From Thermoplasmata archaeon (GTDB lineage Archaea > Thermoplasmatota > Thermoplasmata > Lutacidiplasmatales > UBA184), in assembly GCA_021828195.1 (NCBI GenBank), contig JAKASQ010000004.1, positions 1 to 64,000 of the forward strand: 64,000 nt of DNA. The letters run 5' to 3'. Below, in pieces: positions 14,571 through 33,021 of the stretch. The translations under genes were made by a program, and so were the position numbers. Under the pieces are notes generated by a model, which was not told the origin of the DNA, did no database searches, and saw nothing but the letters and a program-made list of their open reading frames with translations. How positions within the stretch are numbered: position 1 is the stretch's first letter; each line of letters begins with the position of its first letter.

Positions 14571-15860
14571 CTAGAGCGTCCGCATCGCCTGCAGCATGTC
14601 CCGGCCGAGGGTGAGCATCGAGGCCTTCCCGCGATACGACTCCTTCAGGAGCCCGCGAAGATGCGGCTTGTCCTCTCCGTCCACGAAGTACGCCCGGTGT
14701 AGGAGTGACGTCAGGATCTCGGGGTAGCGGGTGTACAGTCGTGGATTCGCGAAGACCTTCGGATACTTCCGGTAGGTCTTCAATTGGCGAAGGACGAAGC
14801 TCGAAGCGAGTCGCTGCCGGTACCGCGCGAGGAACGCGGATCCGGTCTGCTTGGCGTGGACTGCTTCGACCGCCACCTCGCCGGCGATCCGTCCGGACTC
14901 GATCGCGAAGTCCATTCCACGCAGCGTGAACCCGGTGTTGAGGAAGAGCCCGGCCGCCGAGCCGGCGAGGAGGAACCCCTCTCCCCAGAGCGGGGGGATC
15001 GCGTCGTATCCCCCCTCCCCGACAAAGCATCCGCTGTACTCGAGGAGCGAGCCGCCCTCGAGCCAGCGGGAGACCAGAGGATGCTGCTTGAACTCCTCGA
15101 GGATCTCGTACATCCGCGCGTCGTGGTCGACGAGGGACCGCATGTTCAGGATCATGCCCAGGGAAAGGCTGTCGCGGTTCGTGTAGAGGAACGCGCCGCC
15201 CTCGACCTCTCCCGGAAACCCGATCGTGGTGATCTGGGTCCCCTCCATCCCGCGGAGCTGGAAACGCCGTTCGATCTCACCGGGAGGGAGACCGATGACC
15301 TGTTTGACGCCGACGCCGACCGTCTCGGGCCGGATTTCGGGCTGGATCCCTGCCCGGCGGGAAGTGAGCGTGTTCACGCCTTCTGCCACGACGACGACAT
15401 CCGCTCCCAGGTCGTCGCTGCCCGAACGTATTCCGACGACGCGCCCGTTCTCCCGCAGCAGTGAATCGACCTTCACCCCATAGACGGGTACCGCACCGGC
15501 CGCCTCGGCTTTCGCGGCGAGCCACGGATCGAGCCGGCCGCGCAGGACGCTGAACGCGTTGAACGGGGGAGCAGAGAACGACGCATCGTAGAAGTCGAGC
15601 GACACGGCCTGGCGGGGGGTGAGGAACGAGACGACGTTCCGCGAGATCGCTCGCTCCACGGGGGAGGGGTCCTCCTTCCAAAATTCCGGGAAAATCTGCT
15701 GAAGGCCGTGGCTGTAGAGGAGGCCGCCCGAGACGGTCTTCGTCCCGGGTCGGGTGCCGCGCTCGGCCAGCAGAACCTGGAGCCCGGCCTTCGCTGCGAC
15801 GTACGCGGCGGTGCAGCCGGCGAGGCCCGCACCGACAACGACCACGTCGAATTTCTCCAT
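14571..15860 (-). CDS. fixC: FixC-like ETF:quinone oxidoreductase flavoprotein
   Basis: 429-residue flavoprotein that would pass electrons from ETF to membrane quinone. An N-terminal dinucleotide-binding motif GAGLAGCTAAY (residues 10-20) is followed by the FAD-binding ERGTRPGTKTVSGG segment. The substrate/membrane-facing domain follows, and GEGFLLAGSAAG near residue 285 is the second FAD motif. The C-terminus is amphipathic and helical. The partner ferredoxin fixX is not adjacent but lies at 30233-30526, on the other flank of the sulfur cluster. TATA-like CGAAATAG at 15890-15883 sits about 26 bases before ATG 15860. Confidence 0.88.
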   Translation of the reverse strand: MEKFDVVVVGAGLAGCTAAYVAAKAGLQVLLAERGTRPGTKTVSGGLLYSHGLQQIFPEFWKEDPSPVERAISRNVVSFLTPRQAVSLDFYDASFSAPPFNAFSVLRGRLDPWLAAKAEAAGAVPVYGVKVDSLLRENGRVVGIRSGSDDLGADVVVVAEGVNTLTSRRAGIQPEIRPETVGVGVKQVIGLPPGEIERRFQLRGMEGTQITTIGFPGEVEGGAFLYTNRDSLSLGMILNMRSLVDHDARMYEILEEFKQHPLVSRWLEGGSLLEYSGCFVGEGGYDAIPPLWGEGFLLAGSAAGLFLNTGFTLRGMDFAIESGRIAGEVAVEAVHAKQTGSAFLARYRQRLASSFVLRQLKTYRKYPKVFANPRLYTRYPEILTSLLHRAYFVDGEDKPHLRGLLKESYRGKASMLTLGRDMLQAMRTL

Positions 15861-16988: not shown

Positions 16989-17825
16989 ATGAGCGTGGTT
17001 GCCCACCTGCCACGGCGCGTCCTCTCGCTGGTCGAGGAGGAAGCTCCGGACCCCCCGTCGATGAACCTGACGGGTCGCGAGCGGATGACCGTGTCAGACC
17101 GGACGCTCGCCGAGCAGATGTTCACCGAGTTCCGCCAGGATCCCCGGCATCATGAGTTCGTACTCGGATGCCTCAACTGCGGCGAGTGCACCACGGGTTG
17201 CCCGGCGGCTCGATTCTACGACTTTTCCCCTCGCGAGATGCTCCAGATCGCCCAGACGGGGGACGCCACGACCCTCTGGGACGCGATGCAGGAAAAGATC
17301 TGGGCCTGTTGCCAATGCTACACCTGCAACATGCGTTGCCGCTTCGGTAACGACATCGCGGGGATCATCAGCGTGATGCGGGAGCTCTCCGTCCGTCACG
17401 GTGTGGAGGCGACGCGGCGCACGCTCTCCCCGTTCAATCGGTCCCTCACCCTGCTGATGACCGTTGGCACCCAGGTCTCCTCCGACATGATCCAGCCGGA
17501 CTTCTTCCGCGATTGGGGCCCGTTCGCCGCGGGGTCGGAGCAGGTGTGGGGCGTGAGCGCGGAGGTCATGCGCAAGGCCATCCCCCTCGACGTCCTGCAG
17601 ACGACTACGTCGTCGTGGGAGGTGTCGGTGCAGACGTCCCTCGAACTGTTCCGGATCTACGAGCAGACCGGGGTTCTCGACATGCTGCGCGGGCTCGATC
17701 CGGATCTCACGGAGATGCTCGTGGACCTCATCGAGGAGCGACGCGAGGAGTTTACCGAGGCGCGCGAGCGGTACCGGACCGAGATCGAGCGCATGCACGG
17801 GCCGGTGGCCACGTTTTCCGGGTGA
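16989..17825 (+). CDS. shdrC1: sulfur-oxidising heterodisulfide reductase-like subunit sHdrC1
   Basis: 278-residue iron-sulfur protein of the cytoplasmic sHdr complex, which oxidises protein-bound sulfane sulfur. Two [4Fe-4S] motifs are visible: CLNCGECTTGC (Cys61-71) and CCQCYTCNMRC (Cys107-117). A long helical C-terminal domain (about 150-278) distinguishes it from HdrC of methanogens. ATG 16989 begins the operon shdrC1-B1-A-H-C2-B2-lbpA, the order known from bacteria such as Hyphomicrobium and from sulfur-oxidising archaea. An AT-richer CCTTATCAT about 40 bases upstream may be the promoter. Confidence 0.9.
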   Translation: MSVVAHLPRRVLSLVEEEAPDPPSMNLTGRERMTVSDRTLAEQMFTEFRQDPRHHEFVLGCLNCGECTTGCPAARFYDFSPREMLQIAQTGDATTLWDAMQEKIWACCQCYTCNMRCRFGNDIAGIISVMRELSVRHGVEATRRTLSPFNRSLTLLMTVGTQVSSDMIQPDFFRDWGPFAAGSEQVWGVSAEVMRKAIPLDVLQTTTSSWEVSVQTSLELFRIYEQTGVLDMLRGLDPDLTEMLVDLIEERREEFTEARERYRTEIERMHGPVATFSG

Positions 17826-17834
17826 GGAGGGACC

Positions 17835-19142
17835 ATGCTCAACGCGACCCAGATTCGCCAGGTGATCGAGGAACGGACGGAACGCCGGCACGGGACCGGA
17901 AAGAAGGTCGTCGACGTACGGGAGGAGATGGACCGTCTCGAGGACCAGGGGGAGCTCATCGTCCACCGCATCCGGCCCGAGAATCGGCCGGTCGAGATGA
18001 AGACCCTGTTCGGTTGGACCAAGCGGATCCCCACCAACCGGCTCTGGCATCACAAGTCCTGCGGCCAGTGCGGGAACATCCCCGGCTACCCCTCGTCCCT
18101 CCTGTGGGTGATGAACGAAACCGGGCGCTCGTACCTCAACGAGCCCCACCAAACCTCCTGCACGGCTTGGAACTATCACGGGACGGCGACGTCGAATCCC
18201 GTCGCCCTCGCGGCGGTCGCGGCGCGAAACTTCCACCGCGCCTACGAGACCGACAATTTCCCGCTGATCCATTGCGGCACGAGCTTCGGCGATTACAAGG
18301 AGATGCGCAAGCTCCTGGTCGAGAACGCGGAGATCCGGCACAAGGTCCGCGACGTGCTCCGTTCGATGGACCGGGACCTGGTGCTGCCGGAGGAGATCGT
18401 CCACTATTCGGAGTGGGTGCAGGCGATGACCCCCGAGATCGTCGCCCGCCAGAAGATCGCGGCGTCGGGCGTGGTCGCGACCGTGCACGAACCCTGTCAC
18501 TACTACAAGATGGTGCCCGAAGACGCGATCTACGATGACGCCGTCTATCAGGGGCAGAGACCGGCGGTACCGACGGGGATCCTCCTGGCCCTCGGTGCGA
18601 CGGTCGCCGACTACTCGACCTGGTACGACTGTTGCGGGTTCGGGTTCCGCCACATCCTCAGCGAGCGGGAGTTCAGCCGATCGTTCGCGAACCTGCGCAA
18701 GATCCGGCCGATGGTCGAGGAGGCCCATTCGGACGTTGCGATCACCAGCGACACGGGCTGTGTCACGACGCTCGACAAGAGCCAGTGGATTGGGAAAGCC
18801 CACGGCCAGCCGTACCTGCTGCCGGTCCTTTCGGACATCCAGTTCGTCGCCCTCACGATGGGGGCGCATCCCTACAAGATCGCCCAGCTCCATTGGCATG
18901 CGGCTCCCGTCGATCGGCTCCTCGACCGCCTCGGGATTGACTGGCGGACCGCGAAGACCGAGTTCCTCGACTACCTTCGGCAACTCAAGAGCGGGGGCGC
19001 GCCCGAACTTCTGCACCCGCCGCGGGAGGATATCGAGCGGTTCTTTGCCATCAACAAGGGGCAGGTCCTGCCGGACGAAACCCGGGCGACCCCTCCGCCG
19101 TCACCGGTCCCCGTCCCGAGCGCGGGGAGAGGCGGGCGTTGA
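17835..19142 (+). CDS. shdrB1: sulfur-oxidising heterodisulfide reductase-like subunit sHdrB1
   Basis: 435 residues. HdrB-type proteins carry cysteine-rich CCG domains that bind noncubane [4Fe-4S] clusters and form the disulfide-active site. Here the CCG-like parts include HHKSCGQCGN (about 70), HEPCHYYK and YDCCGFGF. The protein is longer than methanogen HdrB, as usual for sHdrB1. Ten bases separate it from shdrC1, with a GAGG ribosome-binding site, and its stop overlaps the TTG of shdrA. Pro-rich C-terminal tail. Confidence 0.88.
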   Translation: MLNATQIRQVIEERTERRHGTGKKVVDVREEMDRLEDQGELIVHRIRPENRPVEMKTLFGWTKRIPTNRLWHHKSCGQCGNIPGYPSSLLWVMNETGRSYLNEPHQTSCTAWNYHGTATSNPVALAAVAARNFHRAYETDNFPLIHCGTSFGDYKEMRKLLVENAEIRHKVRDVLRSMDRDLVLPEEIVHYSEWVQAMTPEIVARQKIAASGVVATVHEPCHYYKMVPEDAIYDDAVYQGQRPAVPTGILLALGATVADYSTWYDCCGFGFRHILSEREFSRSFANLRKIRPMVEEAHSDVAITSDTGCVTTLDKSQWIGKAHGQPYLLPVLSDIQFVALTMGAHPYKIAQLHWHAAPVDRLLDRLGIDWRTAKTEFLDYLRQLKSGGAPELLHPPREDIERFFAINKGQVLPDETRATPPPSPVPVPSAGRGGR

Positions 19143-20176
19143 ATCCGATTCTGGTGCTGGGCGCCGGGCCGGCCGGTCTGAGCGCTGCGGCGGAGCTCGC
19201 GAGCCTCGGTGCGCCCACCCTATTGGTGGAGAAGGAGTCCTACCTCGGCGGCAATCCGACGCGGTGGCATTACTCGCTCCTGGCGCCGGACCTTCGGCCC
19301 GCCGAGGAGATCCTGGGACCGCTCATCCAGCGGGTGGAACACAACCCGAAGATCGAGCTGCACACCGGCTCGCTCATCGCCCGCGCGGAGCCCGAAGGGA
19401 AGGGGTACCGGGTGTCGCTCCAGTCCAAGGATACCGTCCAGACGCGGGAGGTCAGCGCGGTCATCTTGGCTACGGGATTCGACCACTTCGACTCCCGCCG
19501 CAAGTTCGAGTACGGCTACGGACACTTTCCCGACGTGCTCGATTTCAAGGAGCTCGAGGGGATGATCCACGACGACAAGGTCCTCCGACCGTCCGACGGG
19601 AAGCCTCCGCGGCGGATCGCCTGGATCCTGTGCGTCGGTTCCCGCGACATCCAGATCGGCAATCCGTGGTGCTGCCGGATGGGGTGCGTCGTCAGCATCA
19701 AGCAGGCGGTCGAGATCCGCCAGAAACATCCCGAGATCGACGCGTACATTTACTACATGGACGTCCGAACCTACGGCCTCTGGGAAGACCTCTACTGGAA
19801 GTCGATGCAGGAGTACGGGGTCAAGTTCATCCGGGGGCGGATCGGCGCGGTCTCCCTGACGGAGGGCGGGAAGCGCCTCATCGCGACGGGCGAGGACACG
19901 ATCCTGAGCCGACCCACCGAAGTTCCCTTCGACCTGATCGTGCTCGCGAGCGGGATGGAACCGGGGACCGGGACGAAGGAGGCCTCCGAGCTCTTCCACG
20001 TACCGGTCGGTCCCGAGGGGTTCCTCACGCCCAAGCTTTCCGACATGAACACCATTGATTCGGGCCTACCGGGGATCTACTTCGCCGGCGCGGCGACCGG
20101 CCCGAAGGCGATCCCCGACGCGATCACGGAAGGTATGGGGGCGGCGCTTCGTGCGTTCCAGTACGCTCGCGAGTGA
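19139..20176 (+). CDS. shdrA: sulfur-oxidising heterodisulfide reductase-like subunit sHdrA
   Basis: 345-residue FAD subunit. It starts with TTG 19139 and has an immediate dinucleotide motif LGAGPAGLSAAAEL (residues 6-19), then VEKESYLGGN for FAD binding. A Cys group NPWCCRMGC near residue 180 ligates an atypical cluster in this family, and the C-terminal FAD motif is IYFAGAATGPKAIPDAI. sHdrA is shorter than methanogen HdrA and lacks its extra ferredoxin domains; that matches this sequence. It mediates electron transfer within the sHdr complex. Overlaps the next gene by 26 bases. Confidence 0.92.
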   Translation: MNPILVLGAGPAGLSAAAELASLGAPTLLVEKESYLGGNPTRWHYSLLAPDLRPAEEILGPLIQRVEHNPKIELHTGSLIARAEPEGKGYRVSLQSKDTVQTREVSAVILATGFDHFDSRRKFEYGYGHFPDVLDFKELEGMIHDDKVLRPSDGKPPRRIAWILCVGSRDIQIGNPWCCRMGCVVSIKQAVEIRQKHPEIDAYIYYMDVRTYGLWEDLYWKSMQEYGVKFIRGRIGAVSLTEGGKRLIATGEDTILSRPTEVPFDLIVLASGMEPGTGTKEASELFHVPVGPEGFLTPKLSDMNTIDSGLPGIYFAGAATGPKAIPDAITEGMGAALRAFQYARE

Positions 20177-20903
20177 TCCGGCCGACCCGCGGGGCGTCGC
20201 CTCCCGCGTCGATCCGGCGAAGGTCGCCTCGGCGTGGGAGCGGTGGGTCGTTCCGTGCGGCTCCGAGCCGATCAACCGTCTCGAGACCCTGCTCGAACGG
20301 AAGTTCGCGGAAGGACAGCAGCTCGGCCGGCTTCCCGACGCCGAGTTCGGCGCTCGGTGGACCGTCTTTCTCGACGCGATCGTCTCCACCCGACCGTATC
20401 GGCCGGCGATCGTGGAGGCGACGGATGCCCGCCGGATCCGGTCGCTGGTCGAGAAGGTCCGGGCCGGCGGCTTCTCGGCGCGCGACCTGCCGGCCCTCGC
20501 CGACGAGCTCTCCGGCGCGCCACGGGATGTACGGATCGATGTCGCGGCCGAGCTGCTCCACGCCGCCGCCCCCGACCGATCGGGACTCTTGACCCGGTGG
20601 GTCTGGAACCCGGAGCGGGGCACCGGCATCCTCGCGGAGTTCGTGGCCCCGGGCCCGACCCGGTTCCCGGAGGTCCAGGCACGCCTCGGCGAGATCCGGC
20701 TCGAGCTCGCGGCTCTCGGATTTCCTTCGGCGACCTTCGCCTCGGTCGATATTTTGCTCGCCCTCGCCTATTCGGTGCGTCTCTCCGAGGCGACGGACCG
20801 AAGCTTCCAGGGAGGTGGGATGGAGAGCCTGCTGCCCGGCACGCTCGGTCTCGCGTCGATGGTCCTCGGGGTGCGGAGGTGGATCGTTCGTGCCGATAGT
20901 TGA
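20151..20903 (+). CDS. shdrH: sHdrH-like accessory protein of the sHdr operon
   Basis: 250 residues from GTG 20151, inside the end of shdrA. It sits between shdrA and shdrC2, exactly where sHdr operons carry the hypothetical gene hdrH (or its archaeal counterpart). It is soluble and helical, with no cysteine clusters or nucleotide motif. Segments such as WERWVVPCGSEPINRLETLL and ILLALAYSVRLSE can be made out. Identity rests mainly on position and size, so the name is tentative. The stop region overlaps the shdrC2 start. Confidence 0.65.
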   Translation: MRSSTLASDPADPRGVASRVDPAKVASAWERWVVPCGSEPINRLETLLERKFAEGQQLGRLPDAEFGARWTVFLDAIVSTRPYRPAIVEATDARRIRSLVEKVRAGGFSARDLPALADELSGAPRDVRIDVAAELLHAAAPDRSGLLTRWVWNPERGTGILAEFVAPGPTRFPEVQARLGEIRLELAALGFPSATFASVDILLALAYSVRLSEATDRSFQGGGMESLLPGTLGLASMVLGVRRWIVRADS

Positions 20904-21621
20904 GAAGTCGCTCGTCCGCGTCAAGCGGACGGAAAAGCTCGAGCTCGATGGGATCGACGTCTCGGGCGATTGGAACACGTTCCTGGAGTCCCGGGTCCAG
21001 ACCGACCTCGACGTCGGCATCGTCGACTGGGTCCGTTCCCAACCCCAGGGCGACACCATCGACCGATGCTGGCAGTGCGGGACCTGCACGGCCGGCTGCT
21101 GCATGCACACCGACTACGGCCTCGAGGAGTTCAACCCCCGCTATTTCATCTACCTCGCTCAGATCGGATACGAGGAGGAATTGCGGCGCTATGCCCAGAC
21201 GATCTGGCGGTGCGTGTCGTGCAACAAGTGCGTCGAGCGTTGTCCCAAAGGCGTCAAGGTCGAGGAGGTCGTCCATACGATCGGGACCTACCTCGAAGCG
21301 AGCGGCCGGGCGCCCGAGAGCCCCGCGGATCGCTTCGACCGTGCCTACACCGAAAATCTTCTCGACCGCGGCATCCTCGACGAGGCCGGTCTGTTCCGGA
21401 CGTACGAGCGGCTCGAGGGCCGCAAGACGCCGGTCCGAGAGCTCCTGCGCATGGGAACCTCCTTGCTGCTGAGCGGCCGTCTCCACACCGGTCCGCTCGC
21501 CCACCGGACCAAGGGATGGCGCCGAATGCGCCCGGTCCTGAAGGGGCTGCTCGACGAGGACCTCCGCCAGCGGCGGGAGAGCGCCCAAGCCACGCGACCG
21601 GTCGGCCGGAGGGAACCGTGA
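20890..21621 (+). CDS. shdrC2: sulfur-oxidising heterodisulfide reductase-like subunit sHdrC2
   Basis: 243 residues from GTG 20890 (PIVEKSLVRV). Two [4Fe-4S] motifs: CWQCGTCTAGCC near residue 60 and CVSCNKCVERCP near residue 110. The C-terminal half is helical. It would carry electrons between sHdrA and sHdrB2. Overlaps both neighbours, so translation of the whole operon is tightly coupled. Having a C2-B2 pair in addition to C1-B1 fits the type I sHdr arrangement rather than type II. Confidence 0.9.
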   Translation: MPIVEKSLVRVKRTEKLELDGIDVSGDWNTFLESRVQTDLDVGIVDWVRSQPQGDTIDRCWQCGTCTAGCCMHTDYGLEEFNPRYFIYLAQIGYEEELRRYAQTIWRCVSCNKCVERCPKGVKVEEVVHTIGTYLEASGRAPESPADRFDRAYTENLLDRGILDEAGLFRTYERLEGRKTPVRELLRMGTSLLLSGRLHTGPLAHRTKGWRRMRPVLKGLLDEDLRQRRESAQATRPVGRREP

Positions 21622-22550
21622 TTGATCGTTCGCAGTCCCGGGGACCGTCCGACCCGGTGCCAGCGTACTATCCCGGCTGCTCGATGGACGGCCTGGGAAA
21701 GGCGTATGAGGTCTCCTGCCAGCTCGTGCTCGACCGGCTCGGTCTCGCGATGGACCGGATCGTCGACTACAACTGCTGCGGGGCGACCGAGGTGAAGAAC
21801 CTCAGCGAGGAGGTTTCTCTGACCCTGCCCGCGCGCAATCTCTCCATGGCCCGGTCGATGGGTCGCCACGAGGTGATCGCCGCCTGCAACGGCTGCGTCT
21901 ATTCCCTGACGCGGGCGAACGACGCGGACGAGACGACCCGGAGCCGGATCAATTCCCATCTCGAAAAGGGCGGGGCGCCGGCCTACGACGGGGAGGCAAA
22001 CGTCCAGCATGTCCTCGAGTTCATCCACAATCGCGCCGGGGTACCCCGCGTCCGCGCCGCGGTGCGGCGGCCGCTCGCCGGGCTCAAGGTGGCGCCGTAC
22101 TACGGCTGTCTGTACTCCCGGCCCAAACGGTACACGGGCGTCGGGGTCACGCCGGGGACGGACAATCCGGAGCATCCGTTCTTCCTCGACGAGCTCCTGG
22201 AAGCGTGCGGGGCGACGGTGATGCGCGACTATCTGGCGAAGACGATCTGCTGCGGCGGCGGCCATGCGTTGAGCGACCTCGACGTCAGTGTTGCGTTCAG
22301 CGCCTCGGTCATGAACGAAGCGAAGCGGGCCGGGGCGGACCTGGTCGCGACGATCTGTCCCCTCGGCCAGATCAACATCGAGAACAACCTCGACCGGATC
22401 CGCCAGGCCTACGGGGAGGAAACCCTCGTCCCCGTGGCGTACTTCACCCAACTGATGGCGCTCGCGTTGGGCGCGAGCATGCGTGAGGCGCGTCTCAAGG
22501 ACAACTTCTCCCGGCCCGACCGATTCCTGCGCGAGCGCGGGTTCCACTGA
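21618..22550 (+). CDS. shdrB2: sulfur-oxidising heterodisulfide reductase-like subunit sHdrB2
   Basis: 310 residues from GTG 21618. Two complete CCG domains are visible: YYPGCSMDG, YNCCGATE and CNGCVY in the first; YYGCLYSRP, ICCGGGHALSD and ICPLG in the second. This cysteine set binds the paired noncubane clusters used for disulfide cleavage in HdrB. The likely partner is a lipoyl disulfide on LbpA or a thiol bound to sHdr. Nine bases before lbpA1. Confidence 0.92.
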   Translation: MIDRSQSRGPSDPVPAYYPGCSMDGLGKAYEVSCQLVLDRLGLAMDRIVDYNCCGATEVKNLSEEVSLTLPARNLSMARSMGRHEVIAACNGCVYSLTRANDADETTRSRINSHLEKGGAPAYDGEANVQHVLEFIHNRAGVPRVRAAVRRPLAGLKVAPYYGCLYSRPKRYTGVGVTPGTDNPEHPFFLDELLEACGATVMRDYLAKTICCGGGHALSDLDVSVAFSASVMNEAKRAGADLVATICPLGQINIENNLDRIRQAYGEETLVPVAYFTQLMALALGASMREARLKDNFSRPDRFLRERGFH

Positions 22551-22558: not shown

Positions 22559-23008
22559 ATGACGATCTTGAACGGATGCGAATTTCCCGACGGACTGCTC
22601 TACTACGTCGAACGCACGCAGATGACCTGGGTCCGCCTGGACGGCGAGGAAGCCCGGGTCGGCCTGACCGATCCGGCGCAGACCCGGGCCGGCAAGATCC
22701 TGCATCTGCGGATCAAGGCGGCCGGTACCGCCCGGGAGCGGGGCCGACCCGTCGCCACGGTCGAGAGCGGAAAGTGGGCCGGGCCCGTCATGGCGCCCCT
22801 CACCGGGGTCGTCGTCGAGCCGAACCCCGAGGTCGAGAAGGACCCGGGGCTGCTCAACACCGATCCGTACGGGGCGGGGTGGATCGTCCGGCTCAAGATC
22901 TCGAAGCCCGAAGAGCTGCGAGACCTCCTCGAAGGGCCGGCGGCGACCGCGCGGTTCCGGGAGATCCTGGAGAAGGACAATATACGCTGCATGCGTTGCA
23001 AGGAGTGA
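22559..23008 (+). CDS. lbpA1: lipoate-binding protein LbpA (GcvH-like) of the sHdr pathway
   Basis: 149-residue lipoyl-domain protein resembling GcvH. The lipoyl-lysine is Lys72 in the hairpin VESGKWAGP. The flanking VGLTDPAQTRAGKIL and DPYGAGWIVRL are typical of LbpA/GcvH. No glycine-cleavage genes are nearby and it directly follows shdrB2, so it is the sHdr-dedicated carrier rather than GcvH. The C-terminus adds a CMRC pair not found in ordinary GcvH. Its lipoate is thought to accept electrons or sulfur during thiol oxidation. Confidence 0.9.
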   Translation: MTILNGCEFPDGLLYYVERTQMTWVRLDGEEARVGLTDPAQTRAGKILHLRIKAAGTARERGRPVATVESGKWAGPVMAPLTGVVVEPNPEVEKDPGLLNTDPYGAGWIVRLKISKPEELRDLLEGPAATARFREILEKDNIRCMRCKE

Positions 23009-23015
23009 GCTGTCG

Positions 23016-23420
23016 ATGTCGACCGACCTAGGGACCCCGGCTCCGGCGGACCCGACCGGGAAGAAGATCCTGATGATCATGACAACCGGTCCGGAAGACC
23101 CGGACAAGACCTACGCCCCGTTCTACACCGCCGCGCTCATGGCGGCGATGGAGATCGACACGACGATGTACTTCCTCATGCACGCCCCCGAACTGCTCCG
23201 GAAGGGGGCGGCGGAAGCGGTCCCGCTCAAGAAGGGCGGGAACCTGAAGATGTTCGTCGACATGGCGCTCGAGAACGGCGTGAAGCTCATGGCCTGCGCC
23301 GAGAGCTGCCGGGACCTGTGCGAGATCGCCGAGACGGACCTGATCGATGGGGTCCGGCTCGTCGGGTCGGCGACCCTCGCCGACCTGGCGCTCGAAGCGG
23401 ACTCGGTGATCTCGTTCTGA
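23016..23420 (+). CDS. DsrE-family sulfurtransferase (DsrE3-like)
   Basis: 134 residues, DsrE/DsrF-like alpha/beta fold with KKILMIMTTGPEDP at the N-terminus. Candidate sulfur-carrying cysteines occur in LMACAESCRDLCE (about residues 95-107). DsrE3-type proteins shuttle sulfane sulfur with TusA in sHdr organisms. Located 7 bases after lbpA1 and 3 before the lipoate ligase, it is in the sHdr operon. The subclass is judged from context. Confidence 0.8.
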   Translation: MSTDLGTPAPADPTGKKILMIMTTGPEDPDKTYAPFYTAALMAAMEIDTTMYFLMHAPELLRKGAAEAVPLKKGGNLKMFVDMALENGVKLMACAESCRDLCEIAETDLIDGVRLVGSATLADLALEADSVISF

Positions 23421-23423
23421 GCC

Positions 23424-24581
23424 ATGGAACCGGACCGGGCCAGTACGGTCGAGTGGCGCTGGCTCGACCTCGGCAGCGTCGACGGTCCGACGATGGTCAA
23501 TGTCTTCGTCTCGCTCGCGGGCCCCGTGGGCCGGCGCGAATCGTTGCCGACCGTCGTGGTCCTGCACCCCGCCGCGCCGTTCGCCAACGTCGGCTACCAC
23601 CAGGAGGCCGACCGGGAGATCGACCTCGAGTACTGTCGGGGAGCGGGGATACCGGTCGTCCGCCGGGTCGTCGGTGGAGGGGCCATCCTGGACGGGCCGT
23701 GGGAACAGGATTACATGGTCATCGTGCCGAACGGGACGGCGGGCACAGAGGCGGGCGTCGGCCCGTTCTACGACCGTTTCCTCGGGCCGGTCCAGCGCAC
23801 GCTCGCGAGGCTCGGGGTGCGGGCCGAGCGCTCCGGGGTCAACGACCTCGCAGTGGCGGGTCGGAAAGTCAGCGCCAACGGCGCGCTCTCCCTCGACGGG
23901 AGCTGGGTGCTCGTCGGCGACATCCTGCGCGAGCTCGACGTCGCGGCCATGACCCGGGTCCTGCGGGTCCCGGACGAGAAGTTTCGTGGCAAGCTCGCGA
24001 AGGGAATGGACGAGTGGCTGACGTCGCTGACGGCGTTGCTCGGGAGTGCGCCGTCCCGGACCGCGATCACCCGGGCCCTCCGGGAGGAGTACGAGCGGGA
24101 GTTCGGGGTCTCCCTCGTTCCCGGCTCCCTGACCGAGGCCGAGGTCGGGACGCTGACGCGCCTCCGCGCCGAGCGATCGAGCGATGCATGGACGTTCCTC
24201 AAGGAGTCCTCCCACCCGGGGTTCCGGTCTCCCGACCTCCCGCCGCCGGGCCGGTCGGTGAAGATCGCCCACGACACCTACCTCGGGCGCAGCGACCGCA
24301 AGGCAGGCAAGCTGGTCCGGGTGACCCTGCGCTCCCGCGGCGGGGCGGTCGAGGAGATCGAGATATCGGGGGACTTCTTCACCCAGCCGTTCGCCGGTCA
24401 CTTGGACGAGCTTGAGGCGTCGCTCGTCGGCTGCCGGCTCGAGCGCGGCCCGCTCGAAGGCGCGATCGCGCGCTGGGCCGCCGACCGGAAGGTCGCCTTG
24501 CTGGGGATCTCGGGGTCGGACCTCGTCGGTGCGATTCTCGACGCCGGCCCCCCGGCCGCCGGGAATCCGGCACCGCCCTAG
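23424..24581 (+). CDS. slpl1: lipoate:protein ligase of the sHdr type (sLplA/B-like), first copy
   Basis: 385 residues. The cofactor transferase core is recognisable: YHQEADREID (usual GxxQ region), RRVVGGGAILDG (the RR-x2-GGG-x4 lipoyl-AMP loop), NDLAVAGRKVSANG with the conserved Lys that holds the lipoyl carboxylate. A C-terminal accessory domain (about 260-385) resembles an LplB part. It should attach lipoate or a precursor to LbpA. It closes the + strand sHdr operon. Its TAG stop overlaps the stop of the opposing second ligase in the palindrome CTAG, so the two ligases meet tail to tail. Confidence 0.85.
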   Translation: MEPDRASTVEWRWLDLGSVDGPTMVNVFVSLAGPVGRRESLPTVVVLHPAAPFANVGYHQEADREIDLEYCRGAGIPVVRRVVGGGAILDGPWEQDYMVIVPNGTAGTEAGVGPFYDRFLGPVQRTLARLGVRAERSGVNDLAVAGRKVSANGALSLDGSWVLVGDILRELDVAAMTRVLRVPDEKFRGKLAKGMDEWLTSLTALLGSAPSRTAITRALREEYEREFGVSLVPGSLTEAEVGTLTRLRAERSSDAWTFLKESSHPGFRSPDLPPPGRSVKIAHDTYLGRSDRKAGKLVRVTLRSRGGAVEEIEISGDFFTQPFAGHLDELEASLVGCRLERGPLEGAIARWAADRKVALLGISGSDLVGAILDAGPPAAGNPAPP

Positions 24582-25612
24582 ATCCCGAACGAGCCCAACC
24601 GCTCGCGGCGCGGGTCCCCGGGGTCGATCACCACCGGCGGCGCCGTGGACCCGGGATCGTCCGCCGCTACCGACCACGCTCCCTCGGTCGATCCCCCATC
24701 GATGACCCCAACCACGAGGTCCGTCGATCCCTCCTCCCGCACCGCGACCACGAACCGGGACCCGGCGACCCGGACCCGGCGCACGAGCGCGGACGCCCGG
24801 CGGGGCGGTGGAGGTTGACGGAGCCACGCCGGGTCGAGATGGCGGGGCCGGACCTCGGATTCGAATCGGCGGCTCTCGGCCGGTGCGGCGCTCCCTCGGC
24901 GTACCCGAAAGAGGCCCTCCGCCTCGAAGGCCGCGAGCAGGGGAGCCGTCCACCGATCGAGCGCCGGTACGCCCACGGCTTCGCGCTCCAGCGAGGAGAT
25001 CCGGTCCGCCATCTCCCGACGGAGCAGCGAGGAGAACGCCGGATGGGGGGAACGCAGTGCGCCCGCCATCGCGTCGAGGTCCGCACGGCCGAGGAACCCG
25101 CCGACGAGGAGGTGCGCGCCCTCCCAGTCGCCGCCGGCGTTCCCCGAGATCTTGCGGCCGGCCACGACGAGGTCACTCGGCGGGCGGAGCTCGGCCGGGA
25201 CCCCGAGGGAGACGAGGCAGCGCACCGGGCCGCGCAGGAACCGTCCGAGGTCCGCGGGCCCGCCCGACCCGCCCGGAAGGGCATCGTCCAGGTACACGAG
25301 CTGGTAGAAGAGCTGGTCCGCGTCGAGCCAGGTGGTTCCTCCGCCCGTGACCCGCCGGATCACCGGCACGTTCCGGGCGCGGACGAAGGCGTCGTCGATC
25401 TCTTCCTCGTACGACTGGTGGAACCCGAGCGAGAGGTACGGCGTCGCGGGAGCGGCGAGGATCAGCGTGTTCGGGACCTCTCCGGCGGCGACGGAGACGG
25501 CGACGCTCTCGGCGAACGTCTGGGCGACGTACGGCTCGCAGCGGCCGAGATCGAGGAAACGCCAGGGCGCCCTCTCGGAACCGGATCCCCCGGGACAGTC
25601 GCCGGCGGTCAC
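24578..25612 (-). CDS. slpl2: lipoate:protein ligase of the sHdr type, second copy
   Basis: 344 residues from GTG 25612. Same fold as the first copy but diverged: SLGFHQSYEEEIDD, IRRVTGGGTTWLD, SDLVVAGRKISGNAGG are the three active-site elements, all intact. The C-terminal accessory part is Arg/Pro-rich and differs. Its start overlaps the stop of lbpA2, so ligase and substrate are coupled. Two intact ligases each joined to its own LbpA suggest carrier-specific lipoylation, or a split in which one handles octanoate and the other lipoate. Confidence 0.85.
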   Translation of the reverse strand: MTAGDCPGGSGSERAPWRFLDLGRCEPYVAQTFAESVAVSVAAGEVPNTLILAAPATPYLSLGFHQSYEEEIDDAFVRARNVPVIRRVTGGGTTWLDADQLFYQLVYLDDALPGGSGGPADLGRFLRGPVRCLVSLGVPAELRPPSDLVVAGRKISGNAGGDWEGAHLLVGGFLGRADLDAMAGALRSPHPAFSSLLRREMADRISSLEREAVGVPALDRWTAPLLAAFEAEGLFRVRRGSAAPAESRRFESEVRPRHLDPAWLRQPPPPRRASALVRRVRVAGSRFVVAVREEGSTDLVVGVIDGGSTEGAWSVAADDPGSTAPPVVIDPGDPRRERLGSFGI

Positions 25613-26001
25613 GGGGACGGCGCCGGTCCCGTTCCTGCGCCGGGGACTGACCCGTCCGGCCGGATCCGGTAGAACCAGCCCTCCCCGTAGGGGTCCCGGT
25701 TGATCGGGGACGGGTCGGCGGTGAGCGCGTCGTGGGTGGCGACGATCGTGCCTCCGGCCGGCGCCGGGAGATGACCGACCCACTTCTCCGACTCCAGGCT
25801 CACGACCGCGTCGCCGTGGTGGTGCACTGCGCCGAGCACCGGTCCCCGCCAGTGGACGATCCGGCCCGTACGCTGCTGGCCCTCGTCTGTGAGACCGACC
25901 GTCACCGACCCGTCGGGCTCCCGGCGGACCCACAGATCGATCCCGGCAAGACAGGCGATCCCCGGCGGGACCAGCCGCCCGGACGAGGGAAGCTCACTCA
26001 T
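25609..26001 (-). CDS. lbpA2: lipoate-binding protein LbpA-like, second copy
   Basis: 130 residues from ATG 26001 (MSELPSSGRL); GTG 26010 would add three. Lipoyl-lysine is Lys73 in LESEKWVGH, and VGLTDEGQQRTGRIVHW plus DPYGEGWFYRI match LbpA1. An extra HHH in AVHHHGD precedes the hairpin. It lacks the C-terminal CMRC of LbpA1. It is in the tusA-dsrE2-DUF1641-lbpA2-slpl2 operon, so it may work with a different redox partner than the main sHdr complex. Confidence 0.85.
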   Translation of the reverse strand: MSELPSSGRLVPPGIACLAGIDLWVRREPDGSVTVGLTDEGQQRTGRIVHWRGPVLGAVHHHGDAVVSLESEKWVGHLPAPAGGTIVATHDALTADPSPINRDPYGEGWFYRIRPDGSVPGAGTGPAPSP

Positions 26002-26047: not shown

Positions 26048-26473
26048 TCACCCGGACTTCGGTCGGCCCGGGGACGAAGATTGGCGCCCCATCTCCTTGA
26101 AGACGAGCCGGGCCCGGCGTACTCCGCGCTGGATCTCGGGATCGTGGAGGACGCGTCCCAGTCCGGACACTCCCGACACCGCAGGAAGCCGGGCCAGCTC
26201 CTTTTCCCGGCGCTCGGGGTTGGAGAGGACCTCGAGCGACGCGACCAGCGACGTGAGCGCCGGTGCGTTCTCCACCCGGGTCGCGATCAGGGGTTCCATC
26301 TTTTCCTTCGGTGGCAGAGACTCGATGAACCGGATCCACCTGATCGTCGAGGCGCCCGCCGACGCGACCATCTGGTCGGTGGTCGCCTGGGGGACACCGG
26401 CGGCTCCTTCGAGCAGCGTGACGAGCGCGCCGGTCTCCTCCCACTCGTCCCCCGTGCTCCGCGGCGGGAACAG
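26048..26473 (-). CDS. DUF1641-like helical protein, start unresolved
   Basis: All-helical protein with the DUF1641 style: two repeated segments, ALTSLVASLEVLSNPERREK and VLHDPEIQRGVRRARLVFK, each with a helix-DPE-helix pattern. Such genes accompany sHdr and formate-dehydrogenase-like clusters. Coding character extends up to the dsrE2 stop at 26482, but no ATG, GTG or TTG is in frame upstream of ATG 26371. I give CTG 26473 as a possible start; translation from 26371 would yield 107 residues. Function unknown. Confidence 0.6.
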   Translation of the reverse strand: MFPPRSTGDEWEETGALVTLLEGAAGVPQATTDQMVASAGASTIRWIRFIESLPPKEKMEPLIATRVENAPALTSLVASLEVLSNPERREKELARLPAVSGVSGLGRVLHDPEIQRGVRRARLVFKEMGRQSSSPGRPKSG

Positions 26474-26481
26474 GCGGATCT

Positions 26482-26937
26482 CTAGATGAACAGGGTCATC
26501 GCGTCCGCCCTCGACGCGAGTTCGAGGTAGGTGCTCGCGCCGATGACGTCGTCGACCTCGCCCACGAGGCTCTCCTTGGTGAGCCCGAACATGTCCATCG
26601 TCGGGGAGCAGGCGTGGATCCGGACCCCGGCGCTCTTGGCGGACTGCATGAATTGTTCGAGCGAGGGGAACTTCTCGGCGATCTTCTTCTGGAGTTCCGG
26701 CGGGAAGACGTCCATCGCTTTCTTCCGGCCCTCGGTCGTCAGGAGCTGCATCCCCCAGAACGTGAAGTACATGTGCGACTCCATTCCCAGCGCGCGCGCC
26801 GTGGTCGCCAGGATCAGCGACGGATAGGCCATGTCCGCGCCTCCTTTCGACACCACGAGGATGAGGGACGTCTTCCCATCCTTCTTCGCCCGTTCGATCG
26901 ACTCCGTGGCATGCGCCGCCGTTGCTCCCTCGGGCAT
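26482..26937 (-). CDS. dsrE2: DsrE2-type sulfurtransferase
   Basis: 151 residues with the DsrE2/peroxiredoxin-like pattern: SLILVVSKGGADMAYPSLILA at the N-terminal strand and TFWGMQLLT in the middle. The conserved cysteine in RIHACSPTMDMFGL is the presumed sulfur carrier. DsrE2 and TusA are regular partners delivering sulfane sulfur to sHdr. It follows tusA by 14 bases. Confidence 0.88.
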   Translation of the reverse strand: MPEGATAAHATESIERAKKDGKTSLILVVSKGGADMAYPSLILATTARALGMESHMYFTFWGMQLLTTEGRKKAMDVFPPELQKKIAEKFPSLEQFMQSAKSAGVRIHACSPTMDMFGLTKESLVGEVDDVIGASTYLELASRADAMTLFI

Positions 26938-26951: not shown

Positions 26952-27191
26952 CTACTTGTGTTCCAGGACGAACCGGTAGAATCCCGCCTTCTCTTCGTTC
27001 GCCACGAGCGGATTCCCCGTCCGCTTGGCGAACGCGACGAAGTCGGAAGGCGCCGCCGGATCATCGGCCAGAACTTCGAGATGTTCTCCGCGGCCCAGCG
27101 TGCCGAGCATCTCGCTGGCCTTGAGGATCGGCATCGGACAGAAGAGCCCGCGAGCATCCAGCTTGGCCTTCGATTCCATGGAGGATTCCAT
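26952..27191 (-). CDS. tusA: sulfur carrier protein TusA
   Basis: 79 residues. The two-layer TusA fold begins LDARGLFCPMPILKA with active Cys18 in the CPxP motif. TusA holds sulfane sulfur as a persulfide and passes it to DsrE proteins and then to sHdr. The start may be ATG 27191 or ATG 27179; both precede the domain. First gene of the - strand operon tusA-dsrE2-DUF1641-lbpA2-slpl2. Confidence 0.92.
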   Translation of the reverse strand: MESSMESKAKLDARGLFCPMPILKASEMLGTLGRGEHLEVLADDPAAPSDFVAFAKRTGNPLVANEEKAGFYRFVLEHK

Positions 27192-27330: not shown

Positions 27331-27702
27331 TCAACGCACGGAGAGTTCGATGTCGAACGTGCGTCGATCGAGGATCGTCTCTCTTGGGATCGTGAGGATA
27401 TGACGGTACGCCGGGAACAGGTCGGCGCCAAACCGATCGCAGAACGCCGCATTCTCGGCTCCGAAGGCCACCTCGCCGAGCGCGACGAACTCGTCGTCCT
27501 CCCGCAAGAGCACTCCGGCCGCGTGAAAGATCGGTCCGGCCATCATTCCCGAGACCCCCGGGAACTCGAGCGGGGCCGGGTCCCGGTAGCGGATGTAGAC
27601 GACCCGAAGGGGTCCCGAAGGACCGACCGGCTGGTCCTTGCCCGCAGGGTCCCCGGCCATCGGTAGTGGCACGAACGTCTCGCGCTCCTTCGGTCCGCTC
27701 AT
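27331..27702 (-). CDS. unknown protein of the dsrEFH operon, 123 aa
   Basis: ATG 27702 overlaps the dsrH stop (ATGA). Sequence is alpha/beta-like, for example RVVYIRYRDPAPLEF and AGVLLREDDEFVALGEVAFG, with one Cys (AAFCDRF). No metal or nucleotide motif and no known family that I can name. The repeated VALGEVAFG-NAAF pattern hints at a ligand-binding or sensor fold. Last gene of the mrp-dsrEFH operon, thus probably linked to sulfur handling. Confidence 0.65.
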   Translation of the reverse strand: MSGPKERETFVPLPMAGDPAGKDQPVGPSGPLRVVYIRYRDPAPLEFPGVSGMMAGPIFHAAGVLLREDDEFVALGEVAFGAENAAFCDRFGADLFPAYRHILTIPRETILDRRTFDIELSVR

Positions 27703-28028
27703 GGAAGTTCTATCACCTTCGCGGCCTCAAAGAGCCAGGTGACGATCTGTGCGTACGTCACTGGAATGACCGATCCGTCCGAGCCGCCGCGGATCCCCCG
27801 TCCGCGGAACTCCTCCTCCAGAACGTAGAGTCGGGCCGGTGCTCCGGAGGAGGGGACGCGAGGCATGTCGGCCCGATAGCTCGCCGTGCCCAAGAGGATG
27901 CGATGGAGCCGCGCCCCCGCGCGTGCTGCGACGCGGAGGAGCGCGTTCAAGATCTCTTCCTCCTCGACTCCGGGCGCGCTCTGGTGGAGAACGATCCACA
28001 GGGGCCCGGGCGCCGAGTCCCCGGTCAC
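27699..28028 (-). CDS. DsrH/TusB-like protein
   Basis: 109 residues from GTG 28028, coupled to the preceding gene by GTGA. It has the DsrE-superfamily pattern WIVLHQSAPG...EILNALLRVAARAG and ends TYAQIVTWLFEAAKVIELP. It lacks a clear active Cys. With the next two genes upstream it would form a DsrEFH-type heteromer that accepts sulfur from TusA. Assignment as the H subunit is by size and order. Confidence 0.65.
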   Translation of the reverse strand: MTGDSAPGPLWIVLHQSAPGVEEEEILNALLRVAARAGARLHRILLGTASYRADMPRVPSSGAPARLYVLEEEFRGRGIRGGSDGSVIPVTYAQIVTWLFEAAKVIELP

Positions 28029-28375
28029 AACGGCACCACCCGATCCGCCCGCACCAACCATTCGGCAACCTCGTCCGTATCCACCACGGTCACCGGGAGG
28101 TCCGCGATGAGCTCCGCCGGGAGGATCGACCGCCGGGCGAGCGAGTCGCCGTGGACGAGGGCCGGCGAATCCGCTGCAATGATCCCCCGAAGCAGTTGCT
28201 CGAGGGGGGGCCCCAGCCGATGAGGCTCCTGCCCGTGGACCAGCGCGCGGACGCCCTCGCCGACGAACAGGAGACGCACCGGCGTTCCGAGCGCGACCGT
28301 CATCGCCGATGCGCGGATCGTCTCGGCGAGGTGATTGGTCGAGTAGGGCGCGTGCCGGACCCAGAACAGGATCAT
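28025..28375 (-). CDS. DsrF/TusC-like protein
   Basis: 116 residues. It begins MILFWVRHAPYSTNHLAET and continues with the DsrEF-like helix and strand ALGTPVRLLFVGEGVRALV. Ends DEVAEWLVRADRVVPL, like other DsrF/TusC members. No cysteine is seen. Seven bases after dsrE. Confidence 0.68.
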   Translation of the reverse strand: MILFWVRHAPYSTNHLAETIRASAMTVALGTPVRLLFVGEGVRALVHGQEPHRLGPPLEQLLRGIIAADSPALVHGDSLARRSILPAELIADLPVTVVDTDEVAEWLVRADRVVPL

Positions 28376-28382: not shown

Positions 28383-28739
28383 CTACTCCTCTTGGGTCAG
28401 CGCGACGAATCGGTCGGAGCGGGCGAGCAGATCCGATAGGTCCTCGAGCGTTCCGTTGCGCGCGTTGGGGATCAGCGCGCTGTCGGAAAGACCTCGAAAT
28501 CGGGCGCAGGTCGCGCAGTTGATGAGGGTCACGGAACGCGGCAGCCGGGCGAACTGCGTCACCACCGAGTCCGCACCCGCCTCGAGGTGGGCCCGACTGG
28601 TGCAGTACACCCCGTCCCCCAGAAAGAAGACGGTGACTTCGTGGCCGAGCTCGGCCGCGCTCGCTGCGAGACCGACCCCGACGGCGGGCAACCGGTGCTG
28701 TACCGGCGAGGGGAACACGAGGACTCCTAGGGTGCCCAC
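28383..28739 (-). CDS. DsrE/TusD-like sulfurtransferase
   Basis: 118 residues, starting MGTLGVLVFPSPVQH. The DsrE fold shows in LGHEVTVFFLGDGVYC, and the likely sulfur-binding cysteines are in LINCATCARFRG. This is the Cys-bearing E subunit of the predicted DsrEFH complex. In Dsr organisms DsrEFH goes with DsrC, but no dsrAB or dsrC is in the window, so here it probably feeds sHdr. Confidence 0.75.
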   Translation of the reverse strand: MGTLGVLVFPSPVQHRLPAVGVGLAASAAELGHEVTVFFLGDGVYCTSRAHLEAGADSVVTQFARLPRSVTLINCATCARFRGLSDSALIPNARNGTLEDLSDLLARSDRFVALTQEE

Positions 28740-30713: not shown

Positions 30714-31163
30714 ATGCCTACCTACGTGATGACTGACAAGTGCAAAGGCTGCATGGAGTGCGTCAAGATCTGCCCGAGCGATATCATGCATATCGACCCC
30801 GTGCAAGGGCGGGCCTACAACATCGAACCGGCGATGTGCTGGGAATGTTACGCGTGCGTGAAGGCGTGTCCGGAAGCGGCGATCGACGTTCGCGGGTACG
30901 CCGACTTCGCTCCCCTCGGGCACAGCGTGGTCCCGATGCGTACCGCCGATCGGATCGTCTGGAAGATCCGGATGCTGGGCGGAGAGACCAAGGAGTTCAC
31001 GTTCCCGATCCGCACCACTCCCTGGGGATCGATACGGGCGCCGCAGGACGCGCCCGAACCGACCCACGACGCGGCCCGCAGCGAGCTCCTCTCCTTCGAG
31101 CCCGACTATCTGGCGGTCGATGCGCTGCCGACCCTGCCCCGTCCGACCACGGCGGGTGCCTGA
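30714..31163 (+). CDS. aprB: adenylylsulfate (APS) reductase subunit beta
   Basis: 149 residues from ATG 30714 (MPTYVMTDKC). Two [4Fe-4S] motifs: CKGCMECVKICPS (about 9-21) and CWECYACVKACPE (about 43-55), followed by the family's beta sheet and C-terminal tail that wraps around AprA (IRMLGGETKEFTFPI). AprB passes electrons to or from the FAD of AprA. In an sHdr organism the pair works oxidatively: sulfite + AMP to APS. 19 bases before aprA. Confidence 0.95.
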   Translation: MPTYVMTDKCKGCMECVKICPSDIMHIDPVQGRAYNIEPAMCWECYACVKACPEAAIDVRGYADFAPLGHSVVPMRTADRIVWKIRMLGGETKEFTFPIRTTPWGSIRAPQDAPEPTHDAARSELLSFEPDYLAVDALPTLPRPTTAGA

Positions 31164-31182
31164 TCATCGGAGGGAGCCGAAG

Positions 31183-33021
31183 ATGGACGAGGCTCAACCC
31201 CACCCCACGCACGTCGTCGACTGCGACATCCTGATCGTCGGCGGCGGTTTCGCCGGCTGCGGTGCGGCCTACGAGGCGCGCTACTGGGGCCGCGACCTCA
31301 AGATCGTCATCGCCGAGAAGGCCGCGATCGAGCGGAGCGGCGCGGTCGCCCAGGGACTCTCGGCGATCAACTGCTACATGGGCATGCGCTGGAACGAGAA
31401 CCAGCCCGAAGACTTCGTCCGCTACGTGCGGAACGACCTCATGGGCCTCTCCCGAGAGGACCTCGTCTACGACATGGCCCGACACGTCGACTCGACCGTC
31501 CATATGCTGGAGGAGTGGGGACTCCCGATCTTCACCGACCCCAAGACCGGTCGGTACGTGCGCGAAGGTCGCTGGCAGGTCATGATCCACGGCGAGTCGT
31601 ACAAGCCGATCGTCGCCGAGGCGGCTCGCAAAGCCGCCTCGGAGCTCTACGAGCGAATCGTGGTGACCCACCTCCTGCCGGACGCGAAGGACCCGAAGCG
31701 GGTCGCCGGGGCGGTCGGGATCAATGTCCGCGATGGCTCGTTCTACGTCTTCCGCGCGAAGGCCGTCATCGTGGCAGCGGCCGGCGCCTCCCACATCTAC
31801 CGCCCGCGCTCCGCCGGCGAAGGCTCGGGACGGACCTGGTACCCACCGTGGGCGACCGGGTCGGCCTACGCGCTCCTCATTCAGATGGGCGCCGAGATGA
31901 CCCAAATGGAGAACCGACTGGTCGTGACCCGGTTCAAGGACGGCTACGGGCCCGTCGGGGCATGGTTCCTCCTGTTGAAGGCGGTGGCGACCAACGCCGC
32001 AGGCGAGCACTTCGAATCCGCCCGGCTCCCCGAGCTCAGAACCCGGGTCGGGGCGTACGCCGACGCGAAGCCGATGCCGACCTGCCTGAGGAACCACCTC
32101 ATGCTCCAGGAGATCCTTGAGGGGAAGGGACCGATCCTGTTGCACACCGAACGCGTCCTCGACACCCCCGAGAAGGAAACGATCGGCTGGGAGGATTTCC
32201 TGAACATGACGATCGGCCAGGCGGTCACCTGGGCCTCCCAAGGGATCGAACCGACGAAGGACCCGTCGGAGCTCATCCTCTCCGAACCGTACGTGATGGG
32301 CTCCCATGCCGTCTGCGCAGGGGCGTGGACGAGCGGTCCCCAGGACGTCGCGCTGGGGGAGTACTCATGGGGGTACAACCGCATGACGACGGTGGCGGGA
32401 CTGTTCGGAGCGGGGGACACCGTGGGCGGTTCCGCCCACAAGTTCTCGAGCGGGTCGTTCACCGAGGGCCGTCTCGCGGCCAAAGCTGCGGTCGCATTCG
32501 TCCGGGACCACGCCGAGGCGCCGACCGTCGGGGAGGAGGAGATCGCCCGGTTCCGCAGCACGGTCTACGCGCCGTTGGACCGGTACGCGGAGAAGCGCGG
32601 GAACGTGACGGCGGGGACCGTGAGCCCAGACTACCTGTTCCCCGATCAGGGATTGAACCGCCTCGAGAAGATCATGGACGAGTACGCGGGCGGCGTCAGC
32701 GCCAACTACACGACCAACGAGCACCTGCTGACCCGCGCTCTCGAGCATCTTCGCCGGCTCCGGGTCGACCTCGGATCGATGGGGGCACGGGACCTCCACC
32801 AGCTTCAGCGCGTCTGGGAGCTCGACCACCGCCTCTGGACGGCCGAAGCCGTCGTCCGACACACGCTCTTCCGGCAGGAGACGCGCTGGCCCGGGTACTA
32901 CTACCGTGCCGACTATCCCCACGTGGACGACGAGAAGTGGCACTGTTTCGTCAATTCGGTCTTCGACCCGGCGACCCGCGAGTGGAAGCTGTTCACCCGG
33001 CCGTACCACGCGCTCATCTAG
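31183..33021 (+). CDS. aprA: adenylylsulfate (APS) reductase subunit alpha
   Basis: 612 residues from ATG 31183, with GGAGGGAG ribosome-binding site. FAD-binding motif VGGGFAGCGAAYEA is at residues 16-29. The active-site and FAD segments RSGAVAQGLSAINCY and GASHIYRPRSAGEGSGR are present, and the C-terminal RWPGYYYRADYP and WHCFVNSVFD are diagnostic for AprA. Full family length. It lies in the operon aprB-aprA-phosphatase-sat. Confidence 0.96.
   Translation: MDEAQPHPTHVVDCDILIVGGGFAGCGAAYEARYWGRDLKIVIAEKAAIERSGAVAQGLSAINCYMGMRWNENQPEDFVRYVRNDLMGLSREDLVYDMARHVDSTVHMLEEWGLPIFTDPKTGRYVREGRWQVMIHGESYKPIVAEAARKAASELYERIVVTHLLPDAKDPKRVAGAVGINVRDGSFYVFRAKAVIVAAAGASHIYRPRSAGEGSGRTWYPPWATGSAYALLIQMGAEMTQMENRLVVTRFKDGYGPVGAWFLLLKAVATNAAGEHFESARLPELRTRVGAYADAKPMPTCLRNHLMLQEILEGKGPILLHTERVLDTPEKETIGWEDFLNMTIGQAVTWASQGIEPTKDPSELILSEPYVMGSHAVCAGAWTSGPQDVALGEYSWGYNRMTTVAGLFGAGDTVGGSAHKFSSGSFTEGRLAAKAAVAFVRDHAEAPTVGEEEIARFRSTVYAPLDRYAEKRGNVTAGTVSPDYLFPDQGLNRLEKIMDEYAGGVSANYTTNEHLLTRALEHLRRLRVDLGSMGARDLHQLQRVWELDHRLWTAEAVVRHTLFRQETRWPGYYYRADYPHVDDEKWHCFVNSVFDPATREWKLFTRPYHALI

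Follow-up and report, generated by a model that had tools for sequence, protein, structure and literature searches.

Two facing operons, each pairing a lipoyl carrier gene with a lipoate ligase gene, in an sHdr island of a Thermoplasmata archaeon

Why would a single sulfur-oxidation locus encode two lipoyl carriers, each accompanied by a lipoate ligase of its own? The question is raised by a 64,000-nucleotide stretch (hereafter the window; positions 1 to 64,000 of contig JAKASQ010000004.1, assembly GCA_021828195.1) from a Thermoplasmata archaeon, whose source assembly is a 1.62 Mb, 93.6% complete metagenome-assembled genome (MAG). In this window, a complete plus-strand sHdr operon ends in lbpA1-dsrE-slpl1 and faces a minus-strand run of genes, including DUF1641-like, DsrE2-type, tusA and DsrE/DsrF-like genes, that ends in lbpA2-slpl2. 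From comparisons of sequence among relatives, we favour, with some reserve, the reading that these are two operon-specific carrier-ligase pairs in a sulfane-sulfur-oxidising sHdr island, each ligase preferring its own carrier without being strictly bound to it. The genes at the junction are as follows.

22559-23008, plus strand: lbpA1, a GcvH-like carrier of 149 amino acids with lipoyl Lys72, Cys7 and a C-terminal IRCxRC (Pfam GCV_H, 1.9e-34)
23016-23420, plus strand: dsrE, a DsrE-type sulfurtransferase between lbpA1 and slpl1, conserved in position (Pfam DsrE, 8.8e-15)
23424-24581, plus strand: slpl1, a lipoate ligase with a catalytic domain (Pfam LplA-B_cat, 1.7e-28) and an intact LplB-like domain containing GDFF (Lip_prot_lig_C, 1.2e-5; NCBIfam LplB, 9e-12)
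24578-24581: CTAG, read from the sequence as common to both ligase stop codons
25612-24578, minus strand: slpl2, with the ligase core RRVTGGGT, DQ, PSDL and GRKISGNAGG and a truncated accessory domain (Pfam LplA-B_cat, 9e-24)
26001-25609, minus strand: lbpA2, a GcvH-like carrier with lipoyl Lys73 and without a C-terminal cysteine (Pfam GCV_H, 8.9e-23; H-protein matches in the PDB), with an alternative start at GTG 26010 in the same frame

The convergent arrangement, with ligase stops overlapping in CTAG, had been described in a first-pass annotation of the window, and the genes and coordinates agree with it. So do the RR-x2-GGG loop and GRK lysine of both ligases (RRVVGGG and GRKVS in sLpl1, RRVTGGG and GRKIS in sLpl2) and the lipoyl lysines (K72 in VESGKW of LbpA1, K73 in LESEKW of LbpA2). 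That annotation did not mention a further feature, the overlap of the slpl2 start (GTG, 25612) with the lbpA2 stop (GTGA).

To see how the two pairs are distributed, we searched 200 relatives and compared gene order in the genomes that have slpl genes. lbpA2 and slpl2 occur together in 19 genomes of the family of the window genome (f1), the window genome included (in G026, slpl2 is partial, cut by a contig end), and neither gene was found alone in any of the genomes compared. G032 and seven genomes of a related family (f11) carry lbpA1 and slpl1 but neither gene of the second pair. This joint presence or absence suggests that lipoylation in one cell may run along two partly separate lines. In those f1 genomes that lack slpl genes and were checked, GcvH and a GcvH-TusA fusion were the only clear carrier matches. 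An sLpl2 profile run against 390 genomes of the phylum gave full-strength matches in f1 only, the next best being sLpl1 and other ligases, and in a scan of named genomes, sLpl2 matched MAGs of this group and no others (16 titled Thermoplasmata, one titled 'bacterium'). The LbpA1/sLpl1 pair is the older and is common to f1 and f11; LbpA2/sLpl2 was found in f1 only. G003 was considered as a case of lbpA2 in the absence of an sHdr system and was rejected, as its hdrB1 lies on another contig; G051, a candidate for lbpA1 without slpl1, was not usable, as its contig ends after lbpA1.

The four-nucleotide overlap between the lbpA2 stop and the slpl2 start is present in about 15 of the 18 complete cases. 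The facing ligase genes are adjacent in the window and 13 other genomes. Chance alone does not explain the facing arrangement, which is seen again in at least 13 further members of the family. In G021, slpl1 and slpl2 lie about 17 kb apart (L060, L061; G021:C26). The CTAG overlap is not supported as a conserved device, since the ligase stops overlap by exactly four nucleotides in only 6 of 13 genomes, with gaps of -17 to +486 in the others.

Both ligases have an LplA catalytic domain with RR-x2-GGG and the catalytic lysine, invariant in the family, as expected of sLpl(AB). In the alignments, sLpl1 is a full LplA-LplB fusion that keeps RRVxGGGA, NDL, GRKxSANGA and the GDFF accessory domain, and sLpl2 keeps RRVxGGGT, SDL and RKxSGNAGG. 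After its core, sLpl2 has a truncated accessory remnant of four strands, without the GDFF motif and without the run of long end helices. AlphaFold2 models of both proteins had predicted local distance difference test scores of 90 (sLpl1) and 91 (sLpl2); the sLpl2 fold matches archaeal and bacterial LplA, with archaeal LplA (3r07/2art) as its best PDB matches.

Next, we asked whether the two pairs are separate in descent. sLpl1 from f1 and f11 and sLpl2 from f1 form separate clades, each with support of 100/100, so that slpl2 as a recent duplicate of slpl1 was rejected; sLpl2 sits on a long stem, and the tree does not resolve its nearest kin. In the carrier tree, LbpA2 forms a clade (100/100), the GcvH and fusion clades are well supported, and LbpA1 (90/89) groups weakly with the GcvH-TusA fusion, not with LbpA2. 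The second pair changes faster: the evolutionary rate of LbpA2 is about five times that of LbpA1, and that of sLpl2 about twice that of sLpl1. The ratio of nonsynonymous to synonymous substitution rates was 0.10-0.41 in close pairs for all four genes, which indicates that all four are under purifying selection. In partial Mantel tests across 14 genomes with Hdr distances held constant, cognate ligase-carrier pairs gave partial r of 0.36 (p 0.023) and 0.50 (p 0.006), and crossed pairs gave 0.24 and 0.18 (p 0.08 and 0.17). Covariation thus modestly favours cognate pairing and is not decisive.

Several observations weigh against specificity. Covariation between the two ligases themselves (partial r 0.55) is no weaker than that of any cognate pair, and the cognate signal may therefore be inflated by regional effects. 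A Thioalkalivibrio LplA modifies both LbpA1 and LbpA2 in vitro (PMC6067878). Classical ligases need the full accessory domain for adenylation, and in sLpl2 this domain is incomplete; bacterial sHdr ligases have been described as single-domain, active and without transferase activity (PMC6067878), so the reduced domain is no argument against activity. A further observation comes from G031, which keeps both carriers with slpl2 as its only slpl ligase. Here lbpA1-dsrE directly faces slpl2, slpl1 is gone from an unbroken contig (L071 8255-10591), and a genome search found no other copy in this 90% complete draft, a single assembly. If both carriers still work in G031, one ligase probably serves both. 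The carriers of this genome are themselves changed, LbpA1 having lost C147 and LbpA2 having KC instead of KW after the lipoyl lysine, and this divergence may be an adaptation to a single ligase. The first-pass annotation had suggested carrier-specific lipoylation. Co-occurrence, start/stop coupling, separate clades, purifying selection and covariation speak for it indirectly, but exclusivity of the pairing is not absolute, because G031 kept both carriers after losing slpl1, and a preference is the probable form.

Gene anatomy, co-occurrence, the start/stop overlap, the motifs, the clades and the presence of LipA without LipS1/S2 are shown by the sequences; what the enzymes do, which carrier each prefers and what the carriers are for, we infer as follows. 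The ancestral LbpA1/sLpl1 pair would belong to the sHdr core. sLpl1 would activate free octanoate or lipoate with ATP and attach it to Lys72 of LbpA1; LipA would insert sulfur into octanoyl-LbpA1; and LbpA1, in which Cys7 and the CxRC tail are conserved, would present sulfur or electrons to HdrA-B-C. The LbpA2/sLpl2 pair, found only in f1, would belong to the facing sulfur-relay operon (TusA, DsrE2, DUF1641 and often a sulfide:quinone oxidoreductase, SQR), in which translational coupling may keep sLpl2 and LbpA2 in step and sLpl2 would preferentially charge LbpA2. Within one pathway, the two carriers probably act at separate points of sulfur entry or at separate sites. There is precedent for selectivity of this kind: hdr-linked ligases act specifically on LbpA (PMC6067878), and Staphylococcus aureus LplA2 is selective for the GcvH-L of its own operon (PMC4518038).

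A stricter form of pairing is possible, and we put it forward tentatively. The pairs would then be two orthogonal lines, in which sLpl2 recognises LbpA2 only, LbpA2 acts as another lipoyl sulfur carrier and brings sulfane sulfur derived from SQR, TusA and DsrE2 to the sHdr complex, and LbpA1 serves the Hdr core. If this is true, ligase specificity would keep the two carriers separately regulated.

The opposite view, that the ligases are interchangeable, each modifying both carriers, and that pairing reflects operon organisation and dosage, not recognition, seems to us doubtful. It would account for the retention of both carriers with sLpl2 alone in G031, for the single bacterial ligase that modifies both LbpA types (PMC6067878) and for the ES-x-KW around the lipoyl lysine that is common to both carriers. 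However, no genome compared has lbpA2 without slpl2, even though slpl1 is present in nearly all cases, and a redundant second ligase should often be lost; covariation is higher for cognate than for non-cognate pairs; and the altered carriers of G031 may have adapted to one ligase.

sLpl2 might instead be an acyl relay, not an ATP-dependent ligase, handing on to LbpA2 octanoyl or lipoyl groups taken from GcvH, LbpA1 or a coenzyme A or adenylate donor, its accessory domain having decayed because adenylation is unneeded. The loss of GDFF and of the long terminal helices, which leaves four strands, speaks for this. LipM/LipL-type transferases use a catalytic cysteine, located beside the NDL motif, but no invariant cysteine was found in the sLpl2 alignment; sLpl1 has an invariant C71, away from its NDL motif. 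sLpl2 also keeps the RR-GGG, (S)DL and RK-SGNA ligase core, and the single-domain bacterial sHdr ligases are active ligases without transferase activity (PMC6067878). We consider a relay unlikely. That one ligase uses octanoate, feeding LipA, and the other scavenges preformed lipoate, as the first-pass annotation had also offered, is very improbable: nothing supports this directly beyond a genome with both LipA and ligases, nothing here separates the acid specificities of two enzymes with the same core motifs, the genome has LipA as its one lipoyl synthase, and both acids are used by the sHdr ligases characterised so far (PMC6067878, PMC10332631).

The annotation had further proposed looking for LipS1/LipS2 or LipA elsewhere, and only the latter was found. 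LipA is present in the window genome (G000) and in nearly all f1 and f11 relatives, the exceptions being G047 and G068. LipS1 and LipS2 (NF053743) gave background matches only in G000 and all f1 and f11 relatives tested, although positive controls in other families of the class scored E 1e-66 to 1e-174; the query alignments are recognised by NCBIfam as LipS1 and LipS2, close to but under its cut-offs. LipS1/LipS2 was therefore rejected as the partner of these ligases, and LipA is present instead of the sLpl(AB)-LipS1/S2 assembly pathway. Since 88.6% of sHdr archaea are reported to have LipS1/S2 (PMC10332631), the lineage of the window is in the minority. The window genome further encodes GcvH, a GcvH-TusA fusion, a LipB whose gene adjoins a lipoamide dehydrogenase-like gene, and one divergent LplA-like protein (L008 1291-1992; G000:C6:775662-776033) that has RRRTGGTG and cysteines before VGGAAQ; it may be a transferase or inactive. 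Elsewhere in the class, other families have two ligases from separate clades next to Hdr-like, lbpA-like and lipS1/lipS2-like genes (L080 4912-13719, L082 8373-11938), and one of these ligase types, of about 520 amino acids, carries a DUF116 domain.

Both carriers are GcvH-like proteins with a lipoyl lysine, encoded in or beside the sHdr cluster, as expected of LbpA. Among 23 relatives, LbpA1 has the lipoyl lysine, Cys7 and C144 in all and C147 in 22, and Cys7, Lys72 and the IRCxRC-type tail are kept from f11 to f1. In LbpA2 the lipoyl lysine is invariant, most members have an N-terminal cysteine, and no C-terminal cysteine is conserved; exceptions to the conserved N- and C-terminal cysteines of LbpA are known in some archaea (PMC6067878). 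Of the two marks singled out in the first reading, a C-terminal CMRC in LbpA1 and an HHH in LbpA2, both are present, and CxRC proved to be a family feature; HHH occurs in no other LbpA2 seen and was rejected as a functional feature. The fusion of a GcvH-like to a TusA-like domain, about 220-265 amino acids long, is encoded in every f11 genome checked and in nearly every f1 genome, also in f1 genomes that lack sHdr (L004 1159-2010, G000:C2:277455-277763, minus strand; L130-L137, L142, L143). Its lipoyl lysine is Arg in most and Lys in G142, a conserved IRC/IHC at the domain junction matches the LbpA1 tail, and in the window genome its gene adjoins a rhodanese-like gene.

The surroundings of the two pairs are as follows.

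12801-13607 and 13604-14560, plus strand: etfB and etfA, electron transfer flavoprotein (NCBIfam EtfB/EtfA-type matches)
14571-15860, minus strand: FixC/ETF-QO-like flavin adenine dinucleotide-dependent oxidoreductase (Pfam ETFQO_UQ-bd and NCBIfam FixC-type matches)
16989-22550, plus strand: sHdr core (Fer4, CCG and HdrA/HdrB-type matches), with hdrC1 16989-17825, hdrB1 17835-19142, hdrA 19139-20176, hyp ending at 20903, hdrC2 ending at 21621 and hdrB2 21618-22550
26048-26482, minus strand: DUF1641-like protein (Pfam 0.0032, under cut-off)
26485-26937, minus strand: DsrE2-type protein (Pfam DrsE_2, 5.7e-30; NCBIfam SulfCarrDsrE2, 5.9e-20, under cut-off)
26952-27191, minus strand: TusA sulfur carrier (Pfam TusA, 1e-20)
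27699-28061, minus strand: weak DsrH-like gene (DsrH, E 0.08)
28025-28375 and 28383-28739, minus strand: DsrF-like and DsrE-like genes (Pfam DsrE; NCBIfam TusD/TusC-type, under cut-off)
about 30714 to 33021, plus strand: aprB and aprA, adenosine 5'-phosphosulfate (APS) reductase (TIGR02060 and TIGR02061, above cut-off)
34180-35331, plus strand, start approximate: sat, ATP sulfurylase (NF003166, above cut-off)

The sHdr core, hdrC1-B1-A-hyp-C2-B2 with lbpA, has an identical gene order in relatives and the same order as the bacterial core. In several relatives, a type III-like SQR gene lies between the DUF1641 and tusA-like genes (L146, L147); it is missing at this position in the window, by 26048-26482, and the window genome has only a 35% homologue on another contig. 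The closeness of aprB, aprA and sat (30714-35331) to sHdr suggests a complete route from sulfane sulfur to sulfate and is consistent with oxidation of sulfite to sulfate, the direction of APS reductase being presumed oxidative.

The hdr-like cluster has been described for sulfur oxidisers, in which two LbpA types are known (PMC6067878). The bacterial sHdr-LbpA systems of Hyphomicrobium and Thioalkalivibrio (PMC6067878, PMC10332631) likewise combine GcvH-like carriers with a lipoyl lysine, an LplA-like ligase in the cluster and DsrE/TusA partners, but have one characterised ligase for both carriers and mostly LipS1/LipS2, whereas here there is one ligase per carrier, and LipA without LipS1/S2; our LbpA2 is not necessarily an orthologue of bacterial LbpA2. 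The LplA2/GcvH-L (SirTM) operon of Staphylococcus and Streptococcus (PMC4518038) also combines another GcvH-like carrier with a second, selective ligase, in addition to the canonical H-protein, but the present operons have no sirtuin or macrodomain and belong to a sulfur-oxidation context in an archaeal host. The bipartite LplA-LplB of Thermoplasma acidophilum (PDB 3r07, 2art) is alike in catalytic fold and core motifs; sLpl1 differs as a fused AB protein, and sLpl2 retains just a remnant of B. With Mhp-Lpl and Mhp-LplJ (PMC7873978), one cell again has two ligases that differ in the carriers they accept, but these carriers are GcvH and a pyruvate dehydrogenase subunit, not two H-like proteins of one pathway.

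None of the papers searched describes an sHdr locus with two such pairs, which is no proof of absence. Cao et al. (PMC6067878) state that the presence of two LbpA proteins in some sulfur oxidisers has no explanation. The f1 and f11 genomes offer a natural comparison among close relatives with the first pair only, with both pairs, and with both carriers and one ligase, and purified pairs from them would allow a direct test of whether ligases distinguish two H-like carriers. The system would also be a case of sHdr lipoylation in lineages that have LipA and lack LipS1/S2.

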